Shown here: positions 22,085 to 34,552 of the stretch, piece by piece
Layout of the letters: each line of letters begins with the position of its first letter
Numbering within the stretch: the first letter of the stretch is position 1
From: Rhodospirillales bacterium
Lineage (GTDB): Bacteria; Pseudomonadota; Gammaproteobacteria; Nevskiales; Nevskiaceae
Direction: 5' to 3'
Length of the DNA stretch: 34,552 nt
NCBI GenBank assembly: GCA_903970615.1
Contig: CAJCJH010000109.1
Coordinates: 1 to 34,552, forward strand
Made by a program: the position numbers and the translations under genes
The notes under the pieces: generated by a model
Told to the model about the DNA's origin: nothing
Seen by the model: the letters and a program-made list of their open reading frames with translations, nothing else
Databases searched by the model: none

Positions 22085-22666
22085 ATGGACCCCAGATTAA
22101 AAGTGCTGCTTGTACGCGATCAGCCCGGACAAATCACGACCCTGCAAGAAGCGCTCCGCAGCGAAGGCCACAACGTGGTTGGCGACTGCCAGCCGGATGA
22201 TTCGCTGTTGCTGAGGGCGCAGACCGCGCAGCCCGATGTGATGGTGGTCGAGGTCGACAAACTCACCGCAGAGATGATCCAGGCGCTGGAAAACGTCGAT
22301 CGCGTTCACGCCCTGCCGGTGCTGCTGTTCGTCGCGCGCAACGATCGCGCACTGATGCGGCGCGCTTTGGCGGCCGGTGTTAGTGTCTATGTGGTTGACG
22401 ATGTACAACCGCATCGGCTCGCCGCGCTGTTTGCGGTGGCGTTCGCGCGCTTTGAATGCCAGCACGCGCTGCGCAAGAACCTGCAGGAATTGCGCAATCG
22501 GCTGGCGGATGAGCGCGACATCGAGCGCGCCAAGGGCGTCATCATGAAACGCCAGCGTCTGAGCGAAAACGAAGCCGGCGAAATGCTCGACAGACTCGCC
22601 AGAAACCGCAAACAAAGCATCGGCGAATTTTCGCGCACGGTGCTGCAAGTCGCCGCGGTGGCTTGA
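22085..22666 (+). CDS. NasT-like ANTAR-domain response regulator
   Basis: A 193-residue protein with a receiver-like domain (about 5-120) and a C-terminal ANTAR RNA-binding domain (about 130-190). The ANTAR part contains LADERDIERAKGVIMKRQRLSENEAGEMLDRLARNRKQ, whose RAKG and helical pattern are typical. ANTAR proteins bind paired hairpins in mRNA leaders and prevent termination; NasT/NasR proteins do this in nitrate and nitrite assimilation operons. The receiver departs from the standard: VLLVRDQPG and VMVVEVDKLT in place of the usual acidic pocket and phospho-acceptor loop, so it may be controlled by a partner protein such as NasS rather than phosphorylation. No nas operon or partner is visible. 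It is divergent from nsrR. Confidence 0.85.
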   Translation: MDPRLKVLLVRDQPGQITTLQEALRSEGHNVVGDCQPDDSLLLRAQTAQPDVMVVEVDKLTAEMIQALENVDRVHALPVLLFVARNDRALMRRALAAGVSVYVVDDVQPHRLAALFAVAFARFECQHALRKNLQELRNRLADERDIERAKGVIMKRQRLSENEAGEMLDRLARNRKQSIGEFSRTVLQVAAVA

Positions 22667-25458: not shown

Positions 25459-27297
25459 TCATTCGGTTGATTTGCAATCAGCCCTTTTGCTCGCTGCCAG
25501 AAAAGCGCGCCAGCCGCCGAATTCGGTGATGTCGCGTGCGCTTTCCGCGGCCCAGCCTTCGCAGATGAAACCTTTCACCTTGCGGCCATCGGCGAGGTCC
25601 AGTGTGCCGATGCCGAGCGGTGCGGAAATCAGTGCCACGAACGATCCGAAAGCGGCCACCGGCATATCCCATAGCTCGACTTCGATACTGGCGCCGGTTT
25701 GCGCTTTCACCAGTCCCGGCTTCGGAGGCACCGTGCCCGGCAGCGCCAGAAGCCTGTAATTGCTGGCAGTCACGCTGGTTTCGATCAGGCGCGCATTGCG
25801 TTCGGTGAGTTGATGATTCAACGGCATGCCGCTCAAATGCGCGCCGACCACCGCCAGCCGCACCACATCGTTCGTAGACGCGTCGATGGCTTTCGATGCA
25901 ACGCCGGCTTGTGGAATCGGTCGGCCACTGGTGCCGAGCGTCCACGGCGCATGGCGCTGCCAGCGCTGTCCGAATTCGGCGAGCGCGGCATCGCTCCAGG
26001 CAGGCGCGATCAGCGTGATACCGAACGGCAGACCGTCGCTGCGCAGGCCGGCTGGCAGCGCCAACGCGCAGTAATTGAGCAGGTTGACGAAATTGGTGTA
26101 CGTGCCGAGCTGCCGGTTCAGCGTCACTGGTTCGGCTTCGACTGCGGCGATCGTCGGAAAAATCGGCGCTGTCGGCACCAGCAGTGCGTCGACATCGTGC
26201 ATCAACCGCTGTGCCTCGCGTGCCAATTGTGCCCGTCGATATTCGGATTTGAAGGCATCGGCCGCGCTCATCGTGCGTGCCGGCTCGATGATGCCGCGCA
26301 CCACCGGGTTCATTTCAGCGGCATGATCGCACATGAAATCTTCGATCGCCGCATAACGCTCCGCCAGCCACGCGCCTTCATAAAGCAATGCTGCGACCCC
26401 GTGCAGCGGCGCGAAATCCAGCGGCACCAGTTCCGCGCCCAAGGACTCGATACGTTTCAGCGAAACGGCGAAAGCGGCTGCGGATTTTTGATCGCCAAAA
26501 AACTGCGGCGACGCGGGTACGCCGAGGCGCGGCCGCTCAGGAAGTTTCGTACGAGTGGTCGCTGCGGCTTGTACACGCGAATAGGGATCATGCTCGTCGT
26601 AGGCCGCCGCAAGACGAGCGATGAAATTCGCATCATCGACCGTCAATGCCAGTATCGACAGGCAATCCAGCGAACGGCACGCCGGCACCATGCCGCGTGA
26701 ACTGAGCCAGCCGCGTGTGGGTTTGAGTCCAACGATGTTGTTCAAGCCCGCCGGCACACGGCCCGAGCCGGCGGTGTCGGTGCCGAGGGCGAACGGCACC
26801 AGCCCGCGCGCGACCACCGAGGCCGAGCCGGAACTGGAGCCGCCGCCGATGTAGTTCGCATCGAAGCTGTTCGGCACGACACCGTAAGGCGAGCGCGTGC
26901 CGACCAAGCCGGTGGCAAACTGGTCGAGATTGGTTTTGCCGATCAGGATAGCGCCGGCATCCAGCAAGCGCTGCACGGAGGGCGCGGTCATTGTCGCGGT
27001 GTAGGCAAAAGCGGGGCAGGCCGCGGTGGTGGAAAGTGCTGCGACGTCGATGTTGTCCTTCACCGCAAACGGCACGCCGTACAGCGGCAGCCGCGAGATA
27101 TCGCCATCGACCGCAGCCAAGCACTGTTCGAGTTTTACGAGCTGCTTGCTCAGCGCTTCGGAATCGGCATCCAGCAAAAGAATCCATGCGGGATCATCCG
27201 CAACGATTTTTTGCAGCAAGCTGCGAATCGCCGTTTGCGGCGTGATCTCGCCGCTGCGGTAAAGGCTTTGCCAATCGCTGAGCGTCAATGGCGGCAT
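25459..27297 (-). CDS. atzF: Allophanate hydrolase
   Basis: A 612-residue amidase-signature enzyme with an extra C-terminal domain, the length and layout of AtzF/DUR1 allophanate hydrolases. The catalytic triad is visible as Lys80 (GVPFAVKDNIDV), Ser154 (GGGSSSGSA) and nucleophile Ser178 (GTDTAGSGRVPAG). The C-terminal domain (about 455-600) begins near HLSGMPLNHQLTERNARLIE and includes GFICEGWAAESARDITEFGGW; this domain is diagnostic for allophanate hydrolase against other amidases. It converts allophanate to ammonia and CO2, the last step of urea-amidolyase, cyanuric acid and biuret pathways. No urea carboxylase is present, and two BiuH-like hydrolases lie upstream, so biuret is the likely source. 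The ATG at 27297 has no clear Shine-Dalgarno; a GC hairpin lies 40 bp before it. Confidence 0.93.
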   Translation of the reverse strand: MPPLTLSDWQSLYRSGEITPQTAIRSLLQKIVADDPAWILLLDADSEALSKQLVKLEQCLAAVDGDISRLPLYGVPFAVKDNIDVAALSTTAACPAFAYTATMTAPSVQRLLDAGAILIGKTNLDQFATGLVGTRSPYGVVPNSFDANYIGGGSSSGSASVVARGLVPFALGTDTAGSGRVPAGLNNIVGLKPTRGWLSSRGMVPACRSLDCLSILALTVDDANFIARLAAAYDEHDPYSRVQAAATTRTKLPERPRLGVPASPQFFGDQKSAAAFAVSLKRIESLGAELVPLDFAPLHGVAALLYEGAWLAERYAAIEDFMCDHAAEMNPVVRGIIEPARTMSAADAFKSEYRRAQLAREAQRLMHDVDALLVPTAPIFPTIAAVEAEPVTLNRQLGTYTNFVNLLNYCALALPAGLRSDGLPFGITLIAPAWSDAALAEFGQRWQRHAPWTLGTSGRPIPQAGVASKAIDASTNDVVRLAVVGAHLSGMPLNHQLTERNARLIETSVTASNYRLLALPGTVPPKPGLVKAQTGASIEVELWDMPVAAFGSFVALISAPLGIGTLDLADGRKVKGFICEGWAAESARDITEFGGWRAFLAASKRADCKSTE

Positions 27298-27338
27298 GAG
27301 TGGGACGAGTGCATCGATGAATTCGCGTGCGTGGATTT

Positions 27339-27365
27339 CCGCCGCCCGTGTGAAGTGGGCGGCGG
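27339..27365. repeat. Strong GC hairpin between permease and atzF genes
   Basis: CCGCCGCCC (27339-27347) and GGGCGGCGG (27357-27365) are perfect complements around a 9-nt loop. In the direction of transcription (minus strand) no T-run follows, so it is not a standard terminator. It lies about 42 bp before the atzF start, in a 163-bp gap inside an otherwise tight gene group. It could stabilise or process the mRNA, or reduce atzF expression relative to the permease. Confidence 0.7.
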
Positions 27366-27460
27366 CGGATCAAGTCCTCGATCAAAAAATTGAGCGCGAT
27401 TGCCGATGAGTCTCGGCCGTGCGACTGGTTTGGCTGTTCATTCGCAAGTTCGACTACTCG

Positions 27461-29047
27461 TTATTTCGCCGGCGAAAAATGCTGTTCGTCTTCGTGGCTG
27501 GCAACCGGCGTTGCGACCGTGACCATCGCGCAGACCCGCAGGATGAAGGCGACGACCAGATAACTGATCGCAACCAGCGGCGTTTTCGCAATGCCGATCG
27601 CCTCGCTGTGCATGAAGCCGAAGAAGGTCAGCACCGCACCGGTGAGCGCGAAGGCGGCGGCCTTGTTGTAGGCGCGATCGATCATGCAGGCGGTGATCGC
27701 GGCCATGATGACGCTCACCAGAATCGCGCCGCTGCCGAAAATTTCGAGGCCTTTATAAAGTACGCCGGTGCCGGCGAGTTTGTCGAGGCCGACTGCTGCG
27801 GCATTGGTGCCGGCGGCGCCGAGCGCGTTGTCGATCATCGTTTTGCCCCAGCCGGCGACTTGCGGAATCAACGCCAGAATCACTGCGGGCGCATGACTGC
27901 GCGGTGTTTCCTGGAATGCCTGCGCACCGATCAGCATGCCGATGTAGAGCAGGATCGGCGAGATCGCTACCACCGGGATCAGCGCCATCATCAGCGCCAG
28001 AATGCCGAACCACGACAGGATCAAAACCATCACGCCGGTGGCGGCGGAATAGCCGATGCGGCCGCCGATCGCTTTCCAGCCCGGATGGCCGATGTAAACC
28101 GCGTTGATGAATGGATTGCCGAGGCAGCAGCCGATCAGGCTGACCACGCCATCGGCGGTGAGCACGCGCGTGGTCGGGAAGCTGTCGCCACCGACGGCCG
28201 CGCTTTCGACGTTGTTCATCGCTTCGACCAGGTCATAAATGCCGAACGGAATCGCGGTGACCAGAATCACGCCCAGAAACTGGAAGCCGGAAAATATGTG
28301 GCCCACCGCCGGCACCGGAAACGAGAAGCCGAAGCTGGCGAGCGAATCGCCCAAGCCTTTTGGCGTTAGCCCGCCGAAGTTCAGACCGAGCGCGGTCGAA
28401 CCCCAGGCAATTGCGGAACCGACGGCGATGGCAACCAAGCCCGCCGGAACGCCTTTGTACTTGACGCCGCCGAACCAGCTGGCGATGAGGATGGCGAAGC
28501 AAACGATACCGATCACCGGCGTCATGTACATATCGAGCGCGGGCCGCAGCGAGATGAACGCGATCGACACCCCGGCGAGCGCGCCGAGCAGTGCTGCGCG
28601 CGGCGTGATGCGACGGATCACCGGCGCCACAAAGCCGCCGGCCATCAGCACGAAACTCTGCACGAACACCCAGGTGAGGCCAGCTTCCCAGCCCTTGATC
28701 GGATCGCCGCTTTTTGCCGCGATCGGCAGCATGATGACGAACACGACGACGAACATGTGCGGCACGCTGATGCCCGAAGGCAGAGCGCAGACATCGTTGC
28801 GGCCAGTGCTTTTTGCCAGCCGATACGCGAGCCAGGCGTAGTAAAACGTGGACAGCATCATCATCAAACCGGTGGCCGGCAGGATGTGGCCAAAAACGAT
28901 GTCGTCCGGCAGCTTCAGCACGTAACGCAACAGCGCAGTAAGCGTGAGCATGTTCACCAGAATGTTGGTGCCGAAACCGAAGAACGCATTCCAGTCGCCG
29001 GGTGCCCAGATTTTGGGTTTGAATCCAGCCATCGTCGTCGTCGTCAT
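27461..29047 (-). CDS. NCS2-type permease, candidate ureide importer
   Basis: A 528-residue membrane protein with about 12-14 hydrophobic segments, of the NCS2 xanthine/uracil/guanine permease superfamily. Recognisable stretches are WNAFFGFGTNILVN near the start, ALPSGISVPHMFVVVF, and the segment LGNPFINAVYIGHPGWKAIGGR in the second half. Known members are proton symporters for nucleobases. Its place between a BiuH-like hydrolase and allophanate hydrolase suggests it imports the pathway substrate (biuret, triuret or a purine breakdown product); this is inference. The ATG at 29047 is chosen because GGAG lies six bases upstream; a nearby ATG at 29053 leaves no spacing. The hydrolase gene ends 60 bp upstream on the same strand. 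Confidence 0.85.
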   Translation of the reverse strand: MTTTTMAGFKPKIWAPGDWNAFFGFGTNILVNMLTLTALLRYVLKLPDDIVFGHILPATGLMMMLSTFYYAWLAYRLAKSTGRNDVCALPSGISVPHMFVVVFVIMLPIAAKSGDPIKGWEAGLTWVFVQSFVLMAGGFVAPVIRRITPRAALLGALAGVSIAFISLRPALDMYMTPVIGIVCFAILIASWFGGVKYKGVPAGLVAIAVGSAIAWGSTALGLNFGGLTPKGLGDSLASFGFSFPVPAVGHIFSGFQFLGVILVTAIPFGIYDLVEAMNNVESAAVGGDSFPTTRVLTADGVVSLIGCCLGNPFINAVYIGHPGWKAIGGRIGYSAATGVMVLILSWFGILALMMALIPVVAISPILLYIGMLIGAQAFQETPRSHAPAVILALIPQVAGWGKTMIDNALGAAGTNAAAVGLDKLAGTGVLYKGLEIFGSGAILVSVIMAAITACMIDRAYNKAAAFALTGAVLTFFGFMHSEAIGIAKTPLVAISYLVVAFILRVCAMVTVATPVASHEDEQHFSPAK

Positions 29048-29107
29048 CTTCATCTCCGTTACGTGATGCGATCGCACAGGCAATCGCGTTGCATTCAACG
29101 AGCGCAA

Positions 29108-29800
29108 TCAGCTGGTGCCGATCACATTCATTGCCTTGATCAAGTGATCCGAATGCGTGATCCAGCCGAAGATGCCGCCTTGTGCTGCGATCATCTTCAG
29201 GCCGGCTCGGTGAAATTCCGGGAAATACGAACCGACGCAATCTTCCGGCACCAGACATTCATAGCCGCGATCGTTGGCCTCGCGGATGGTGCTGTTGACG
29301 CAGACCTCGGTGGTCACACCGGTGACGACCAACTGCGAAATGCCGTGCTGCTGCAAGATCAGTTGCAGGTCGGTGGCGTAAAAAGCGCCTTTGCCCGGCT
29401 TATCGATCACCGGCTCGTTGGCGGCGGGATACAGTTCGGGAATGATGTCCTGCCCCGGTTCGCCGCGGATCAGGATGCGACCCATCGGGCCAGCATCGCC
29501 GATCGTGGTCTGCGTGCGGCCGCGGATTTTTTTCGCCGGCGGCAGATCGCTCAGATCGGGCCGATGACCTTCGCGCGTATGAATCGCAAGCCATCCCTGC
29601 GCGCGCCAAGCGGCCAGCAATCGGCGATTGGGTTCGATCGTGCGCCGCAGTTGCGACACATCATTGCCGAGCATCGCGCCGAATCCGCCGGGCTCCAGAA
29701 AATCGCGCTGCATATCGATGACCAGCAGCGCGCAACGGCCCGGACTCAAGCCGAATGAGTAGGGTTGCGCATCGATCTCGATTGTCGGGTTAGCGTTCAT
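29108..29800 (-). CDS. Isochorismatase-like cysteine hydrolase, candidate triuret hydrolase
   Basis: A 230-residue cysteine hydrolase of the isochorismatase-like superfamily, closely related to biuret hydrolase. The predicted triad is Asp29 (LLVIDMQRDF), Lys134 (VIDKPGKGAF) and Cys167 (GVTTEVCVNSTIREANDRGY). The shared segments [14 protein letters not shown] and RGEPGQDIIPELYP place it next to BiuH, but it differs in the specificity region: YFPEFHRAGL replaces the [11 protein letters not shown] of the BiuH in the same cluster. Triuret hydrolase (TrtA, described from Herbaspirillum) belongs to this superfamily and also occurs with BiuH, so triuret is the best guess; other ureides are possible. 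The ATG at 29800 is the natural start. It shares strand and spacing with the permease gene that follows. Confidence 0.8.
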   Translation of the reverse strand: MNANPTIEIDAQPYSFGLSPGRCALLVIDMQRDFLEPGGFGAMLGNDVSQLRRTIEPNRRLLAAWRAQGWLAIHTREGHRPDLSDLPPAKKIRGRTQTTIGDAGPMGRILIRGEPGQDIIPELYPAANEPVIDKPGKGAFYATDLQLILQQHGISQLVVTGVTTEVCVNSTIREANDRGYECLVPEDCVGSYFPEFHRAGLKMIAAQGGIFGWITHSDHLIKAMNVIGTS

Positions 29801-29858
29801 GCCGCGAACTTGCGAAGAGCATGCCGATCGATTTAAGCGCTGTTTGCCGAGTTGCCGA

Positions 29859-30815
29859 TCAGAAGCCGAGGCTGAAACCGGCAATGCCATTGAACACATT
29901 GCGGCGTCCGTTCGGGCGGTTGATCGTCAGCGCTTGCGCATCGACCAGCGCGCCATTCAGCAGATTGAAATACTGCAAGCCGATGAAAACGCTCCAGCCG
30001 CCATACTGCGCGGGGATGAACGAAAGTGGTGTCGTCGCCGTAAGCCCGGTCGAAAAAACGCCGAAATTATTGCCGCCGCAACCGATCCCCTTGATTGATT
30101 TCGCCGCCATTGCCGCGCCGCTCGCGCTGTCGCACCAGAATTCGGATGGTCCCACCGAAACCCAGGTCGGCATGGTCAGGGTCAGCGGAACGCTGTCGAG
30201 CTTCAGGGTCGGCTTCGCACCGATTTCCAGATAAGCAGAGGTTCCGGCATTCGCCGGACGGCCGAGAACGACTACCGACGACGGGCTGGAAATCGCCCAG
30301 AAAATTTCCGCGTGCGGTTGTATCGACCAGCTTCTGGCAGCCTGACTATCGTCGAATGTGGCAGTGAATTCGATGTTCTGCTCATTGCTCGGCGAGCCAC
30401 TCGGAAAATTCCAGCTGTCGTAAGTGGCACTCAGCTTGAGCTGCTTCGTCGCCTGGTAATTCACGCCGGCGAAGAAATCCTCCTCGACCCAGGCGCCGGT
30501 TCCGGGCGTGTGCTGGTGAAACGCATCGACATCGTTCCACGAACCCACCACGACCGAAAAATTCTGCGGCAGCACCAACACCAGGCCTGCGACATATTGC
30601 TCCGTGAGTCCTTCGTCGGTGACCAGCAGACCACGCGGCGTGATGTAGTCATTGCTGGCCTGCGCGTTGGCAAAGCCATGAATTGCCGAACCCGGCGAGG
30701 CGTCTGCCGCTGCCGTGCCCGCGTAGAAGGCCGCCAGCAGGAGCAGACCCGAAATACAAGTTTGCAGCCGTGCCGCCGATTTTGTCTGAGCGCTTGCCAA
30801 TCCAGATGCGGTCAT
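29859..30815 (-). CDS. Outer-membrane beta-barrel protein, putative porin
   Basis: A 318-residue protein of unknown family. A signal peptide of about 37 residues (TCISGLLLLAAFYAGTAAADA) is followed by alternating polar/hydrophobic strands rich in Gly, Ser and aromatic residues, for example KLSATYDSWNFPSG and GGWSVFIGLQYFNLLNGALV. The chain ends in GIAGFSLGF, with the terminal Phe recognised by the Bam machinery for barrel insertion. Its size suggests 10-14 strands. Two Cys residues lie close together (WCDSASG...GIGCGG). Its place in the biuret cluster suggests a specific pore for small ureides; this is inference. The ATG at 30815 has GGGAG six bases upstream. A regulatory dyad covers the start region. 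Confidence 0.7.
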   Translation of the reverse strand: MTASGLASAQTKSAARLQTCISGLLLLAAFYAGTAAADASPGSAIHGFANAQASNDYITPRGLLVTDEGLTEQYVAGLVLVLPQNFSVVVGSWNDVDAFHQHTPGTGAWVEEDFFAGVNYQATKQLKLSATYDSWNFPSGSPSNEQNIEFTATFDDSQAARSWSIQPHAEIFWAISSPSSVVVLGRPANAGTSAYLEIGAKPTLKLDSVPLTLTMPTWVSVGPSEFWCDSASGAAMAAKSIKGIGCGGNNFGVFSTGLTATTPLSFIPAQYGGWSVFIGLQYFNLLNGALVDAQALTINRPNGRRNVFNGIAGFSLGF

Positions 30816-30853
30816 CTTGAACTCCCTGTTGTATACAAGATTGAGTTCAAGAT
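30814..30853. promoter_or_regulatory. 40-bp dyad over the outer-membrane gene start, centred on TTGTATACAA
   Basis: The arms ATCTTGAACTC (30814-30824) and GAGTTCAAGAT (30843-30853) are perfect 11-bp complements. The palindrome TTGTATACAA (30829-30838) lies exactly at their centre. The palindrome matches operators typical of GntR/FCD regulators and recurs before biuH. In RNA the arm would pair with part of the Shine-Dalgarno and the first bases of the start codon. TATACA inside the palindrome could also be a -10 box, with TTGCTA 18 bp upstream of it on the minus strand. Confidence 0.7.
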
Positions 30854-30867
30854 TAGCAAACGGCGTG

Positions 30868-30893
30868 CCAATCCCTGTTCATGTAGGGATTGG
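30868..30893. repeat. Inverted repeat between gntR and the outer-membrane gene
   Basis: CCAATCCC (30868-30875) and GGGATTGG (30886-30893) are perfect complements, extendable to 9 bp, with an 8-nt loop. It lies downstream of the gntR stop and upstream of the outer-membrane gene dyad. There is no T-run, so it may be a mRNA stabiliser, a weak terminator or a second regulator site. Confidence 0.5.
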
Positions 30894-30984
30894 TTTCAGA
30901 GATAGACCGAAAAGGGCCAGCGAATGGCAGCGACCAAAACGCCGCCGGGCTTGGCCGGCTTGTCCGCGGGAAGCGGTGCCCCGA

Positions 30985-31707
30985 TCAGGCGGCTACGGAA
31001 TTGTTGCGTCGTTTGCCGGTGTGTGGCTTGTTCGCCAGGTTAGCGCGCGCCTCGTGCAGCATGTGCAGCGTGATCTTGCGTACTTCGCCCTTGCTTTGGG
31101 TGATATGCGAGCGCAGCAGGATGATTGCTTCGGTGGCCTTGCGCCGCAGGATCAGCCGCAGGATTTTTGCGTGCTCTTCGTAGGTCGTGTCAATCCGTGC
31201 CGATTTGAGAAAGTCGAGTCGGCGGATGATGCGGATCTTGTCGGTCAACTCCGCGTGTACCCGCATCACTTCACGATTGCCGGCGGCTTCCACCAGCGAA
31301 CAGTGAAATGCCTCGTCGAGTCCGGCAACCTTGTGCGGATCGGTTTCGCGTTCGTCCGCCGTGACCAGCCAGGTCTTTTTTAGTGCGCCGAGCGATGCGT
31401 CCGAGTCCGTATGACAGAGCCGCTCGATTGAATTGGTCTCCAGCAGGATGCGCAAATCGTAAAGCTCGTCGAAGCGGACGAAATCGAACGGGCATACGCT
31501 CCAGCCGCTGCGGAAATTCACATCAACATAGCCTTCGCGCTTGAGCCGATACAGCGCATCGCGCAGCGGCGTGCGCGATACGCCGAAGCGCAAGGCCAGC
31601 GCAGTCTCGGTGAAGCGATCACCGGGCAGCAGATGGAAATCGAAGATTTCTTCCTTGATGCGCAGGTAAACCTGCTCGGCAAGGGGATTGGCGGGCTGCT
31701 GCTTCAT
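30985..31707 (-). CDS. GntR/FCD-family transcriptional regulator of the ureide cluster
   Basis: A 240-residue GntR-family regulator. The N-terminal winged helix (about 10-75) holds LAEQVYLRIKEEIFDFHLLPGDRFTE and FGVSRTPLRDALYRLKREGYV. The C-terminal FCD domain (about 85-220) holds DELYDLRILLETNSIERL, then DEAFHCSLVEAAGN, then EEHAKILRLI and LLRSHI, giving the Asp/His set that usually binds a metal and an acid ligand. It should repress the surrounding genes until a pathway carboxylate (such as allophanate or a carboxylated ureide) binds; this is inference. The ATG at 31707 gives the family's usual length. TTGCATGCAA lies 27 bp upstream, similar to the sites before biuH and the outer-membrane gene, suggesting autoregulation. 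Confidence 0.92.
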   Translation of the reverse strand: MKQQPANPLAEQVYLRIKEEIFDFHLLPGDRFTETALALRFGVSRTPLRDALYRLKREGYVDVNFRSGWSVCPFDFVRFDELYDLRILLETNSIERLCHTDSDASLGALKKTWLVTADERETDPHKVAGLDEAFHCSLVEAAGNREVMRVHAELTDKIRIIRRLDFLKSARIDTTYEEHAKILRLILRRKATEAIILLRSHITQSKGEVRKITLHMLHEARANLANKPHTGKRRNNSVAA

Positions 31708-31733
31708 TGAAAAAGGGTTATCCGCATCGAATC

Positions 31734-31743
31734 TTGCATGCAA
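31734..31743. promoter_or_regulatory. Candidate GntR operator before gntR (TTGCATGCAA)
   Basis: A perfect 10-bp palindrome 27 bp upstream of the GntR start. It differs from the sites at 30829-30838 and 32966-32975 only by symmetric changes, giving the shared form TTGYATRCAA. Confidence 0.5.
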
Positions 31744-31760
31744 CTCTGTATTCGAAAAGT

Positions 31761-32168
31761 TTACAGGTAAAGACTGAGTGAGGTCGGATCGACCAGGCTC
31801 ACATGCGCGGCGACGATTTTCCAATCCATTCCAAAGCGAATCCAGGTCTGGGTTTGACGCCCGAGCAGCGGGGTATCCGGCGCAGTGAATTCGGTGCAGA
31901 CGCTGGCGGAATCGTTGCCGAATGTCGTAATCAGAGTGCCTTGCAGCTGGCGTGCCGGATGAACCGGCGCAATGCGCGCACGCGAGCGGCGAATGGCATC
32001 GATGCCGAGGCCATGCTCGGCAATTCCATAGCGCAGCGTTCTGCTGTCTTGCCAGAAAAAACTATCGAGCGTGGCCGCATCGTTTTCAAGCAGCGCCGCT
32101 TCGTACCGATCGAAGGCAAGCTGAACTTCGGCCATCACCTCGGGGCGATTGACAGGCTCTGAATCCAT
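31761..32168 (-). CDS. HpxZ/AtzH-like DUF3225 protein
   Basis: A 135-residue SnoaL/NTF2-like protein of the DUF3225 group, which includes HpxZ (oxalurate catabolism in Klebsiella) and AtzH (beside the cyanuric acid genes of Pseudomonas sp. ADP). Typical stretches are FDRYEAALLENDAATLDSFFW, TLRYGIAEHGLGIDAIRRSR, TLITTFGNDSASVCTEFTAP and the ending TWIRFGMDWKIVAAHVSL. Its chemistry is not settled; it appears with amidohydrolases acting on carboxylated ureas, so it may process or remove a side product such as carboxybiuret or dicarboxyurea. The usual partners AtzE and AtzG are absent here. The ATG at 32168 has no clear Shine-Dalgarno. biuH lies about 110 bp upstream on the same strand. Confidence 0.85.
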   Translation of the reverse strand: MDSEPVNRPEVMAEVQLAFDRYEAALLENDAATLDSFFWQDSRTLRYGIAEHGLGIDAIRRSRARIAPVHPARQLQGTLITTFGNDSASVCTEFTAPDTPLLGRQTQTWIRFGMDWKIVAAHVSLVDPTSLSLYL

Positions 32169-32275
32169 GAAAATAGTGGCGGGAAAATTGAACGATGGCC
32201 GACAGTTTAATCAGCCGTCGAAAAAGTTTCCGCATCATCAATGCCCGCTTGAAAGCCTCGCCGGATCAGGCAAGG

Positions 32276-32959
32276 CTAGCCGAGAGCTTCGATCAGTTGC
32301 TTCGAACTGGCCACCGCACCGAATACGCCGCCCTGCATTTTCACCATCTTCAATGCAGCGAGATGATTACCAAGATCAGTCGCCGCGCAGCAATCTTCCA
32401 GCAGCAGACACTCGAAGCCTCGATCGTTGGCCTCGCGCATCGTCGTATGCACGCAGACATCCGTTGTAATGCCGCTGAGCAGCAAATTCCGGATGCCGCG
32501 CGTGCGCAGGATAAGTTCGAGATCGGTCGCGCAAAACGAACCTTTGCCCGGTTTATCGATGATGATTTCACCGGCTTCCGGTGCCAATTCCGCGATGATG
32601 TTCCATCCCGGTTCACCGCGCACCAGGATTTTTCCGCAAGGGCCGTCGTCGCCGATGCCCGCACCGATCCGCCGTGAACGCCAGCGTTTATTGGCCGGCA
32701 GATCGGACAGGTCCGGCCGATGGCCTTCGCGCGTGTGGATGATCGTAAATCCGAGCGGCCGTAAGCGTCCCAGCAATCGGTGGATCGGCTCGATCGGTGC
32801 GCGTGTCAGCGACAGGTCGTATCCCATCTTGTCGACATAGCCGCCAACTCCGCAAAAATCGGTCTGCATGTCGATGACGATCAACGCAGTGTCCGCCGCA
32901 GTAAAGCTGCCGTCGTAAGGCCAAGGGTAAGGGTCAGCGGGAATAGAGCGAAAGTCCAT
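32276..32959 (-). CDS. biuH: Biuret amidohydrolase
   Basis: A 227-residue isochorismatase-superfamily cysteine hydrolase that closely follows BiuH of Rhizobium leguminosarum as recalled. Shared stretches are [11 protein letters not shown] near the start, [53 protein letters not shown] and [17 protein letters not shown]. The triad Asp30, Lys136 and Cys169 corresponds to Asp36, Lys142 and Cys175 of the Rhizobium enzyme with a constant offset of six. It hydrolyses biuret to allophanate and ammonia in the cytoplasm; AtzF at 25459-27297 would finish the pathway. The ATG at 32959 is preferred to a start at 33004, which would overlap the operator. It is the first gene of the same-strand group. Confidence 0.93.
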
Positions 32960-33428: not shown

Positions 33429-33686
33429 ATGGAACTCGTCAAACTCGGTAAGAAGGGGCAGGTCACAATCCCGATCGGCATCCTGCGTGCGCTCGGGGTT
33501 CGTGAAGACTCCCCCATGCTTGTGGAGGCGACCGGCGACGGAGGCATCATGCTGCGTCCGGCCGCGGTCTATCCGTTCGAGATGTATTCGGATGCCCGCG
33601 TTGTCGAATTTGAGCGCGAAAACGCGGTTCCTGCCGCTCTGCTGGCAAAGGTCGATCGGGCGATTGCGAAAAAGAAACGCGGCTAA
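33429..33686 (+). CDS. AbrB/MazE-family antitoxin
   Basis: An 85-residue protein with an N-terminal swapped-hairpin AbrB DNA-binding domain: MELVKLGKKGQVTIPIGILR, then ALGVREDSPMLVEATGDGGIML. The C-terminal part (about 55-85), charged and ending in AIAKKKRG, would wrap around and block the toxin. The ATG at 33429 has the strong Shine-Dalgarno GGAGGA and begins at the AbrB strand, so an upstream start at 33417 is rejected. The PIN toxin start overlaps its stop by one base. Palindromes upstream fit autorepression. It lies on the element side of the tRNA-Met fragment, as expected for a stabilising toxin-antitoxin module. Confidence 0.9.
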   Translation: MELVKLGKKGQVTIPIGILRALGVREDSPMLVEATGDGGIMLRPAAVYPFEMYSDARVVEFERENAVPAALLAKVDRAIAKKKRG

Positions 33687-34102
33687 TGCGGGTTTTTCTC
33701 GACGCGAATATTTTGTTCAGCGCCGCCTATGTTGATGACAGTAGTGCGAGCCGGTTATTCGGATTGCAGGCAGTCGGAGTTTGCCGGCTACTGACCTCGG
33801 CCTATGCACTCGATGAAGCGCGGCGCAACATTGCGGCCAAACGTCCGAAGCAATCTGCGGCCCTTGAGTCGTTCGTAGGCCATCTCACTCTGACGCCTGA
33901 GCCCTCGCCTGATCTGACGGCGGAAGCGGTACGGTTGGGGCTGCCGGCCAAGGATGCGCCGGTACTGGCCGCTGCCATCGCTGGCAAGGCAGATGCGCTT
34001 ATTACTGGTGATCGTGCGCATTTCGGGCATCTGTACGATCAGACGGTCGCGGGGGTTCGTGTCGTTCGGCTCACCGATGCCTTCGCGCTGCTGGTGGGCT
34101 AG
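33686..34102 (+). CDS. PIN-domain toxin (VapC-type RNase)
   Basis: A 138-residue PIN-domain protein. The acidic metal-binding residues are Asp6 (VFLDANILFSA), Glu44 (ALDEARRN), Asp90 (GLPAKDAPVLAAAI) and Asp109 (ALITGDRAHF), in the order expected for a PIN RNase. VapC-type toxins cleave tRNA or rRNA in cells that lose the antitoxin. The ATG at 33686 shares its A with the antitoxin TAA stop, so translation is coupled. The CRISPR array begins 29 bp after its stop. The pair could stabilise the element that carries the array. Confidence 0.92.
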   Translation: MRVFLDANILFSAAYVDDSSASRLFGLQAVGVCRLLTSAYALDEARRNIAAKRPKQSAALESFVGHLTLTPEPSPDLTAEAVRLGLPAKDAPVLAAAIAGKADALITGDRAHFGHLYDQTVAGVRVVRLTDAFALLVG

Positions 34103-34131: not shown

Positions 34132-34552
34132 GTGGTGGATTCCGGGCAGGTCTTGGTCAACTAAACTGAAGCGCCCGGACTTGTCGCCATGCCTGCGGTT
34201 GTGGATTCCGGGCAGGTCTTGGTCAACTAAACTTTCGGGCCTTTATATCTCATCGTATAGATGGTTGTGGATTCCGGGCAGGTCTTGGTCAACTAAACTC
34301 CCCAAAGCTCTCGGTTCATGGTGCTAACCGTTGTGGATTCCGGGCAGGTCTTGGTCAACTAAACTAAAAAAATCGGACGAAAGGTAGTGCTGACAGTTGT
34401 GGATTCCGGGCAGGTCTTGGTCAACTAAACTGAAGCCAGCGCTGATGCCCACCAATTTACAGTTGTGGATTCCGGGCAGGTCTTGGTCAACTAAACTAGT
34501 GCTGCGAAAGACGAACGCGCGAGGAAGGTTGTGGATTCCGGGCAGGTCTTGG
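34132..34552. CRISPR. CRISPR array, 36-bp repeats and 30-bp spacers, open at the right
   Basis: Seven repeats begin at 34132, 34198, 34264, 34330, 34396, 34462 and 34528; the last is cut by the window at 25 bases. The repeat starts GTTGTGGATTCC and ends TCAACTAAACT. Six spacers are all exactly 30 bp: 34168-34197, 34234-34263, 34300-34329, 34366-34395, 34432-34461 and 34498-34527. The first repeat has G for T at position 3; the others are identical where visible. Constant 30-bp spacers with 36-bp repeats are most like type II. A degenerate end repeat usually marks the leader-distal end, which would put the leader at the right. No cas gene is in the window. Confidence 0.97.

Follow-up and report, generated by a model that had tools for sequence, protein, structure and literature searches.

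The window analysed here is a stretch of 34,552 nucleotides, positions 1 to 34,552 of contig CAJCJH010000109.1 in the assembly GCA_903970615.1, which is recorded as a Rhodospirillales bacterium and placed in the Nevskiaceae by GTDB. The host genome comprises 3.17 Mb in 126 contigs, with an assembly completeness of 98.15 %. Between positions 25459 and 32959, the window carries seven genes on the minus strand, in the transcription order biuH, atzH-like gene, gntR, omp, trtA, permease and atzF (Table 1). Strand and order agree with an earlier note made from the letters of this stretch, in which the genes were read as a biuret/triuret nitrogen-scavenging cluster. This reading is supported and, because the sequence of one hydrolase marks it as a triuret hydrolase (TrtA), can be narrowed to triuret. 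The cluster is very likely a set under the control of a GntR-type regulator for the use of triuret, and of biuret, as nitrogen sources. The likely starts of gntR (31707), trtA (29800) and the permease (29053) were chosen by eye against relatives.

Two sets of sequences were used for comparison. The set of relatives comprises 61 genomes, including the host's own, and a further 80 loci are the best among the listed matches to the window TrtA in a collection of 84,980 species genomes. By their record titles, the latter belong to Verrucomicrobiota, Actinomycetota, Chloroflexota and Pseudomonadota, among others. The frequencies given below for the 80 loci are not valid for all TrtA proteins because the loci were selected as best matches to the window protein.

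Table 1. Genes and candidate operators of the triuret cluster, with positions in the window and the basis of each assignment
Feature	Position	Strand	Basis
biuH, biuret hydrolase, 227 aa	32276..32959	-	NF050097 413.4 bits (cut-off 370), signature, BiuH clade
AtzH-like protein (PF11533; HpxZ by NCBIfam), proposed carboxybiuret processing	31761..32168	-	profile matches
gntR, GntR-FCD regulator, 240 aa from likely start	30985..31707 (open frame to 31824)	-	PF00392 and PF07729 over cut-off
omp, predicted outer-membrane beta-barrel, proposed substrate porin	29859..30815	-	predicted structure, homologues before trtA
trtA, triuret hydrolase	29108..29800 (open frame to 29899)	-	PDB matches, signature residues, TrtA clade
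permease of predicted UraA/UapA fold, proposed triuret importer, 530 aa	27461..29053 (open frame to 29107)	-	predicted fold, trtA linkage
atzF, allophanate hydrolase, 612 aa, C-terminal AH_C	25459..27297	-	TIGR02713, PF21986
candidate operator TTGTATACAA	32966..32975	.	upstream of biuH; perfect copy
partial operator copy CGTATACA	32979	.	beside TTGTATACAA upstream of biuH
candidate operator TTGTATACAA	30829..30838	.	13 bases before omp start codon; perfect copy
weaker candidate operator TTGCATGCAA	31734..31743	.	between atzH-like gene and gntR

Hydrolases and gene order in relatives

The product of biuH passes the NCBIfam equivalog cut-off for biuret hydrolase and carries the triad D30/K136/C169, as the earlier note had stated. 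It also shows the BiuH signature Y41/Y47/D167/V212 and is 76 % identical to the BiuH of R. leguminosarum over 221 positions. The second hydrolase had been described as BiuH-like, a name that has to be replaced, as the protein reaches 275.5 bits with the BiuH model against the cut-off of 370. It matches PF00857 (isochorismatase-like) with 159 bits, has an Asp-Lys-Cys triad (D62/K167/C200), and its top PDB matches are 6xix and 6xj4; 6XJ4 and 6XJE are named as TrtA structures (PMC7948467). Identity amounts to 59 % over 211 positions with the structure-solved TrtA, from which it does not differ at any of the 11 active-site and second-shell positions compared, and to 53 % with the neighbouring BiuH. 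At the second-shell positions discussed for the preference of triuret versus biuret, TrtA has F, N, E and I and BiuH has Y, Y, D and V (PMC7948467). The TrtA-specific residues F35/N41/E160/I205 (Herbaspirillum numbering) are present in the window protein as F73/N79/E198/I243.

The exact TrtA pattern was found in 91 of 147 aligned rows and the BiuH pattern in 50, with six rows deviating. These are BiuH-type rows with V to I (two) or D to G (one), a gapped row, the crystallised Rhodococcus BiuH with its Cys-to-Ser exchange, and a distant hydrolase of relative G057. In a tree of 92 rows, built from five references, 31 rows from the relatives and a Terrarubrum plasmid, and alternate rows of the remaining 111, the TrtA/BiuH split has a support of 97/93, and all 200 bootstrap trees place the window protein among the TrtA sequences. 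Residue count and tree do not include the trtA rows of L010, L032, L051 and L077 of the 80 loci and of L106, L112 and L113, due to the choice of start codon. The stretch L108 carries no trtA. Four plasmid stretches (L105, L128, L129 and L130) also stand outside both, and the residues of L105, L129 and L130 were checked separately. An assignment of the second hydrolase as BiuH was rejected because of cut-off, residues and tree.

TrtA-type genes are also found on plasmids. On an E. coli IncF plasmid (L105, 9998-17208), a hydrolase with the TrtA signature and 63 % identity to the window TrtA has fdrA, DUF1116 and genes for carbamate kinase and a cytosine permease as its neighbours. Among the 40 plasmid records listed for the window TrtA (969 matched), 39 are from E. 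coli or Klebsiella, many of them from poultry.

AtzF, with its amidase and AH_C domains, passes TIGR02713 with 816.9 bits (cut-off 511.05) and matches PF21986 AH_C with 170.6 bits, and its top PDB matches are allophanate hydrolases. The curated cut-offs are likewise passed by the AtzH-like protein and by the regulator, the latter as GntR-FCD, so that the names given to these three genes in the earlier note can be kept. The absence of urea carboxylase and AtzE claimed in the earlier note agrees with searches of the whole genome. No urea carboxylase over the cut-off was found there, since even the best matches are partial and extend over positions 1-445 of 1201, and AtzF therefore has no urea-amidolyase partner among the genes found. 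Since the only two amidase-signature proteins in the genome are the cluster AtzF and a GatA, no AtzE is seen. A genome search for AtzD gave no match, and the positive control of this search likewise gave no signal. A urease alpha subunit is encoded in the genome.

The gene order is kept in the genus and the family, as the reading in the earlier note requires. The order biuH-atzH-gntR-(omp)-trtA-permease was found in 13 of the 15 genomes with trtA among the relatives, the host's own included, with gntR copies 67-76 % identical at the same position in 12 relatives and omp present in nine of the 15. In G005 the halves of the cluster lie about 7.6 kb apart, the contig of G006 ends within the permease, and the AtzH-like match of G013 is split in two pieces. 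The position of atzF varies: it lies upstream of biuH in eight of the 15 genomes and upstream of trtA in G021 and G035, whereas in the window and in G017 it follows the permease; it was not seen in the available stretch of G006, G008 and G009. The AtzF proteins of the window and G017 are 67 % identical to each other, compared with 49-53 % to those of the eight genomes with atzF upstream of biuH. A cupin gene is present and the AtzH-like gene absent in G021; neither was seen in G035, in which biuH lies at the contig end. Three further relatives (G018, G041 and G057) have a BiuH-type gene with no TrtA orthologue and no permease match, and a hydrolase of 53-54 % identity is present in G055 and G056, again with no permease match.

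Proposed transport and control

The permease had been assigned to NCS2 in the earlier note. The predicted fold is NCS2-like and in this respect the assignment stands, whereas the protein is without a match in Pfam (E≤10) and in NCBIfam (E≤0.001). Its AlphaFold2 model (pLDDT 89.8) has short strands at 93-95 and 317-319, and such short strands mark the UraA/UapA fold. The model resembles UapA, UraA, SVCT1 and SLC26 proteins, with UapA as the top structural match (Z 29.7, rmsd 4.8, 400 aligned) and UraA at Z 26.4 (rmsd 3.6, 361 aligned). Because SLC26 chains reach up to Z 27.2, membership in NCS2 and in SLC26 is not separable. The permease shares its fold and the short strands with UraA/UapA and SLC26 but differs from them in its lack of profile matches and in its identity of 8-16 % to the 50 listed solved chains. 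A profile search of PDB sequences gave nothing usable. For 46 aligned members of the permease family, including the window protein, the NCS2 profile of Pfam (Xan_ur_permease) is missing from the 11 weak matches (E≤1). The matches of the members to Pfam and NCBIfam are scattered, weak and limited to single members, the best having an E-value of 0.0041, and they belong to unrelated families. On plasmid records, distant homologues are annotated as xanthine/uracil/vitamin C or NCS2 permeases, and the closest as a 'regulator'.

A role in triuret uptake is suggested by the linkage to trtA. Permease orthologues (at least 78 % identical) and TrtA orthologues occur in the identical 15 of the 61 genomes. 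In 60 of the 80 loci, the permease is no more than 1 kb away from trtA, and it follows trtA directly downstream in 57 of the 77 that have at least 1600 downstream bases. The permease was found in 61 of the 80 loci and BMP/Nup-type ABC genes in seven, but never together (chance 1.6e-5, with relatedness ignored), and this exclusion fits an uptake role. Based on model and linkage, the permease is proposed as an inner-membrane triuret importer. In Frankia/Parafrankia (L036, L041, L055, L058, L063) and in mycobacteria (L047, L075, L081), trtA adjoins the permease with no biuH in the available stretch.

The omp product was modelled with AlphaFold2 from six sequences (pLDDT 70.7) as an N-terminal helix followed mainly by beta strands. 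Its best structural matches are outer-membrane barrels, the highest being autotransporters (EspP, Z 17.6, rmsd 4.3, 242 aligned), and the porins KdgM, NanC, OmpG and Tsx are also among them. Since the matches span autotransporter barrels and porins, the fold indicates the outer membrane and not the substrate. Searches of PDB sequences and Pfam gave no family for this protein. Homologues of omp lie upstream of trtA in eight relatives and, at 26-31 % identity, precede trtA in five Verrucomicrobia loci. The predicted barrel is proposed to be a triuret porin.

The regulator probably binds TTGTATACAA, as judged from the position of the sites. Only two copies of this sequence occur in the 3.17 Mb genome, at 30829 and 32966, both at the cluster. 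The window has three sites of the relaxed form TTGYATRCAA, a number that none of 100 shuffles reached. In the omp-bearing relatives, it lies upstream of omp in eight of eight (37-119 bases) and upstream of atzF in seven of eight (42-75 bases), the eighth (L106) having a site with one mismatch; these distances were measured to extrapolated gene starts. Operator-like sites near biuH, atzF or trtA were also found in L111, L118 and L120. A sigma-70 scan gave four promoter-like sites, versus 2.7 expected, and none at the operators.

Proposed pathway and alternative explanations

As the second hydrolase is TrtA, the cluster is taken to encode the conversion of triuret via carboxybiuret, biuret and allophanate to ammonia. 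Triuret would enter through the outer-membrane beta-barrel and then the inner-membrane permease. TrtA would release ammonia from it to yield carboxybiuret, which would lose CO2 to give biuret, aided by the AtzH-like protein; the spontaneous reaction has a half-life of roughly 20 min. BiuH would then release ammonia from biuret to leave allophanate, from which AtzF would produce the final two ammonias. The GntR-FCD protein, bound at TTGTATACAA upstream of biuH and omp, would govern two putative units, biuH-atzH-gntR and omp-trtA-permease-atzF. The identities of the genes, the signatures of TrtA and BiuH, the conservation of the neighbourhood and the candidate operators follow from the sequence; the substrates of the transporters, the reaction of the AtzH-like protein, the two units and the binding at the operators are inferred from sequence and predicted structure.

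For the carboxybiuret step, a different chemistry can be considered. The AtzH-like protein scores 159.4 bits with the Pfam AtzH-like family (cut-off 27) and 149.3 with NCBIfam HpxZ (cut-off 135). It was not filed as AtzH itself because no AtzE partner was found that would make the substrate. The catalytic residues Y22 and R46 are kept, as are R63, R73, F94, Q106 and Q108 (AtzH numbering), and there are two substitutions, R66 to I and R96 to A. AtzH probably acts on 1,3-dicarboxyurea (PMC6219798). This, together with the retained Tyr22 and Arg46, would suit a route in which BiuH deaminates carboxybiuret and the AtzH-like protein then converts the resulting 1,3-dicarboxyurea to allophanate, as AtzH does after AtzEG. 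We consider this route unlikely. In 33 rows of BiuH-linked AtzH-like proteins (duplicate stretches included), Arg66 is lost in all and Arg96 in all except L064, whereas five proteobacterial proteins linked to AtzE keep both, and the loss is taken to suit a substrate that has one carboxylate less. This argument is blunted by the other four of the nine AtzE-linked proteins, which are verrucomicrobial and also lack both arginines. In three of the five arginine-keeping cases (L068, L074 and L083), biuH is also near. The split of the AtzH-like proteins into two groups is weakly supported (59/50), and the five AtzH variants with a reported reduction do not include those at Arg66 and Arg96 (PMC6219798).

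The loss of the two arginines may nevertheless fit carboxybiuret, a one-carboxylate substrate, and the AtzH-like protein of the cluster, which has no AtzE partner, may process this compound. Among the 80 loci, an AtzH-like gene occurs without atzE in 20, all of which have biuH, and with atzE in eight. Cupin genes (5 of 80) and AtzH-like genes (28 of 80) do not co-occur, which is no more than suggestive since chance alone gives this with a probability of 0.11. The small cupin gene was observed in trtA clusters that lack the AtzH-like gene, in L130 (11874-12206), L004, L005, L006, L010, L013 and L118 (10063), and is Cupin_7 by Pfam in L130 and L005, the two that were scanned. The cupin may thus be an alternative for the carboxybiuret step. 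A Terrarubrum plasmid (L104, 9040-15155) has trtA, the same type of permease, atzF, DUF4089 (AtzG-like), atzE and hpxZ, with no biuH in the stretch, and probably routes triuret through AtzEG and AtzH.

Still less probable is that the true input is another ureide, such as a purine breakdown product or guanylurea. Guanylurea hydrolases (GuuH) reach identities of up to 65 % to the hydrolase family of TrtA and BiuH (PMC9800807), a similarity that slightly lowers the confidence in the triuret reading. The fold of the permease is common to nucleobase transporters, its distant homologues bear purine-type annotations, and the AtzH-like protein passes the cut-off of HpxZ, a name that points to oxalurate. 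However, HpxY or AllFGH type genes are not among the seven genes of the cluster. Neither are linked oxalurate genes, the partners of HpxZ presumably being hpx genes, for which no genome-wide search was made. The close permease orthologues track TrtA, with 38-42 % identical paralogues in 11 of the 15 trtA genomes and seven others, and TrtA, BiuH and AtzF jointly fit triuret. Finally, a biuret cluster with two biuret hydrolases and triuret as a side substrate at best would agree with the 53 % identity and the shared catalytic residues of the two hydrolases, but is highly improbable given the score, the second-shell residues and the clade of the second one.

Several observations weigh against the use of triuret by the complete set as proposed. 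The window TrtA is 59 % identical to the assayed enzyme, its signature residues are no proof of activity, and it was assigned by comparison with TrtA and BiuH references, GuuH being a further member of the family. The model of the barrel is of moderate confidence only, and omp is missing from the cluster position in six of the 15 genomes with trtA. A perfect operator match was found neither in L109, L110 and L116 nor in L022, L064, L068, L074 and L083, in which GntR is 52-58 % identical, and L107 has an extra operator-like site that is not tied to any cluster gene. Of the 61 permease loci, 36 show no biuH within the available stretch, so that in some cases the permease may work outside a complete triuret pathway.

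Outside the cluster, the window ends in a CRISPR-like array (34132-34552) with seven copies of a repeat of about 36 bases at a period of 66 bases, the last truncated by the contig end. Next to it (33430-34102), a PIN-domain gene (PF13470) directly follows a small ORF with no Pfam match. The small ORF resembles an AbrB-type antitoxin by eye, making a toxin-antitoxin pair possible. A response regulator with an ANTAR domain (22085-22666) lies about 3 kb from the cluster. As ANTAR response regulators include the nitrate regulator NasT, a link to nitrogen is possible by analogy. An Rfam scan of the window gave no match.

Relation to known systems and implications

The enzyme core of the cluster was already known because operons with TrtA, BiuH and AtzF were published in 2020 (PMC7948467). 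The operons of Herbaspirillum sp. BH-1 and Rhizobium leguminosarum 3841 have the same three hydrolases and the same triuret-to-ammonia chemistry as the window, freeing all four nitrogens, and the decarboxylase gene trtB co-occurs with TrtA. The main text on these operons mentions neither 'permease' nor 'GntR', and has 'transporter' in a reference title only (PMC7948467). The triuret pathway of nitrifiers comprises a trtA-trtB-biuH-atzF set with the ABC transporter bmpA-nupABC (PMC12625717). That cluster resembles the window in combining triuret genes with a transporter, and gntR is named in its Fig. 6 legend, but it has the ABC transporter in place of the permease and carries trtB. The atzDGEHF operon of Pseudomonas sp. 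ADP (PMC6219798) has AtzH-like and AtzF proteins in common with the window. In contrast to this operon, the cluster is without AtzG and AtzE, with no AtzE in the genome, and its proposed input is triuret instead of cyanuric acid.

According to the earlier note, such a set with its transport genes and regulator is not known to have been described. This applies to a part of it: the hydrolase operons are published, whereas no description of a triuret-specific permease, porin or operator was found in the searchable literature, which does not extend to most subscription papers. The permease, the outer-membrane barrel and the GntR regulator with its candidate operator are apparently undescribed, and the window probably combines the known pathway with an undescribed transport and control module.

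A broader proposal, which in our view could go either way, is that the permease is the founder of a dedicated triuret (polyuret) transporter family, found with trtA in several phyla, without a Pfam or NCBIfam model and paired in some diderms with a triuret porin. In this proposal, the BiuH-linked AtzH-like proteins would be carboxybiuret decarboxylases that lack the arginine pair proposed to hold the second carboxylate of the AtzH substrate, and would represent one of several interchangeable routes (AtzH-like protein, cupin, AtzE with AtzH). Triuret is an impurity of urea fertiliser, with which about 300 million pounds of it are brought onto farmland annually (PMC7948467). The cluster offers testable candidates for a triuret permease, a porin and an operator, an un-modelled permease family gains a likely substrate, and a function can be proposed for AtzH-like proteins that have no AtzE partner.

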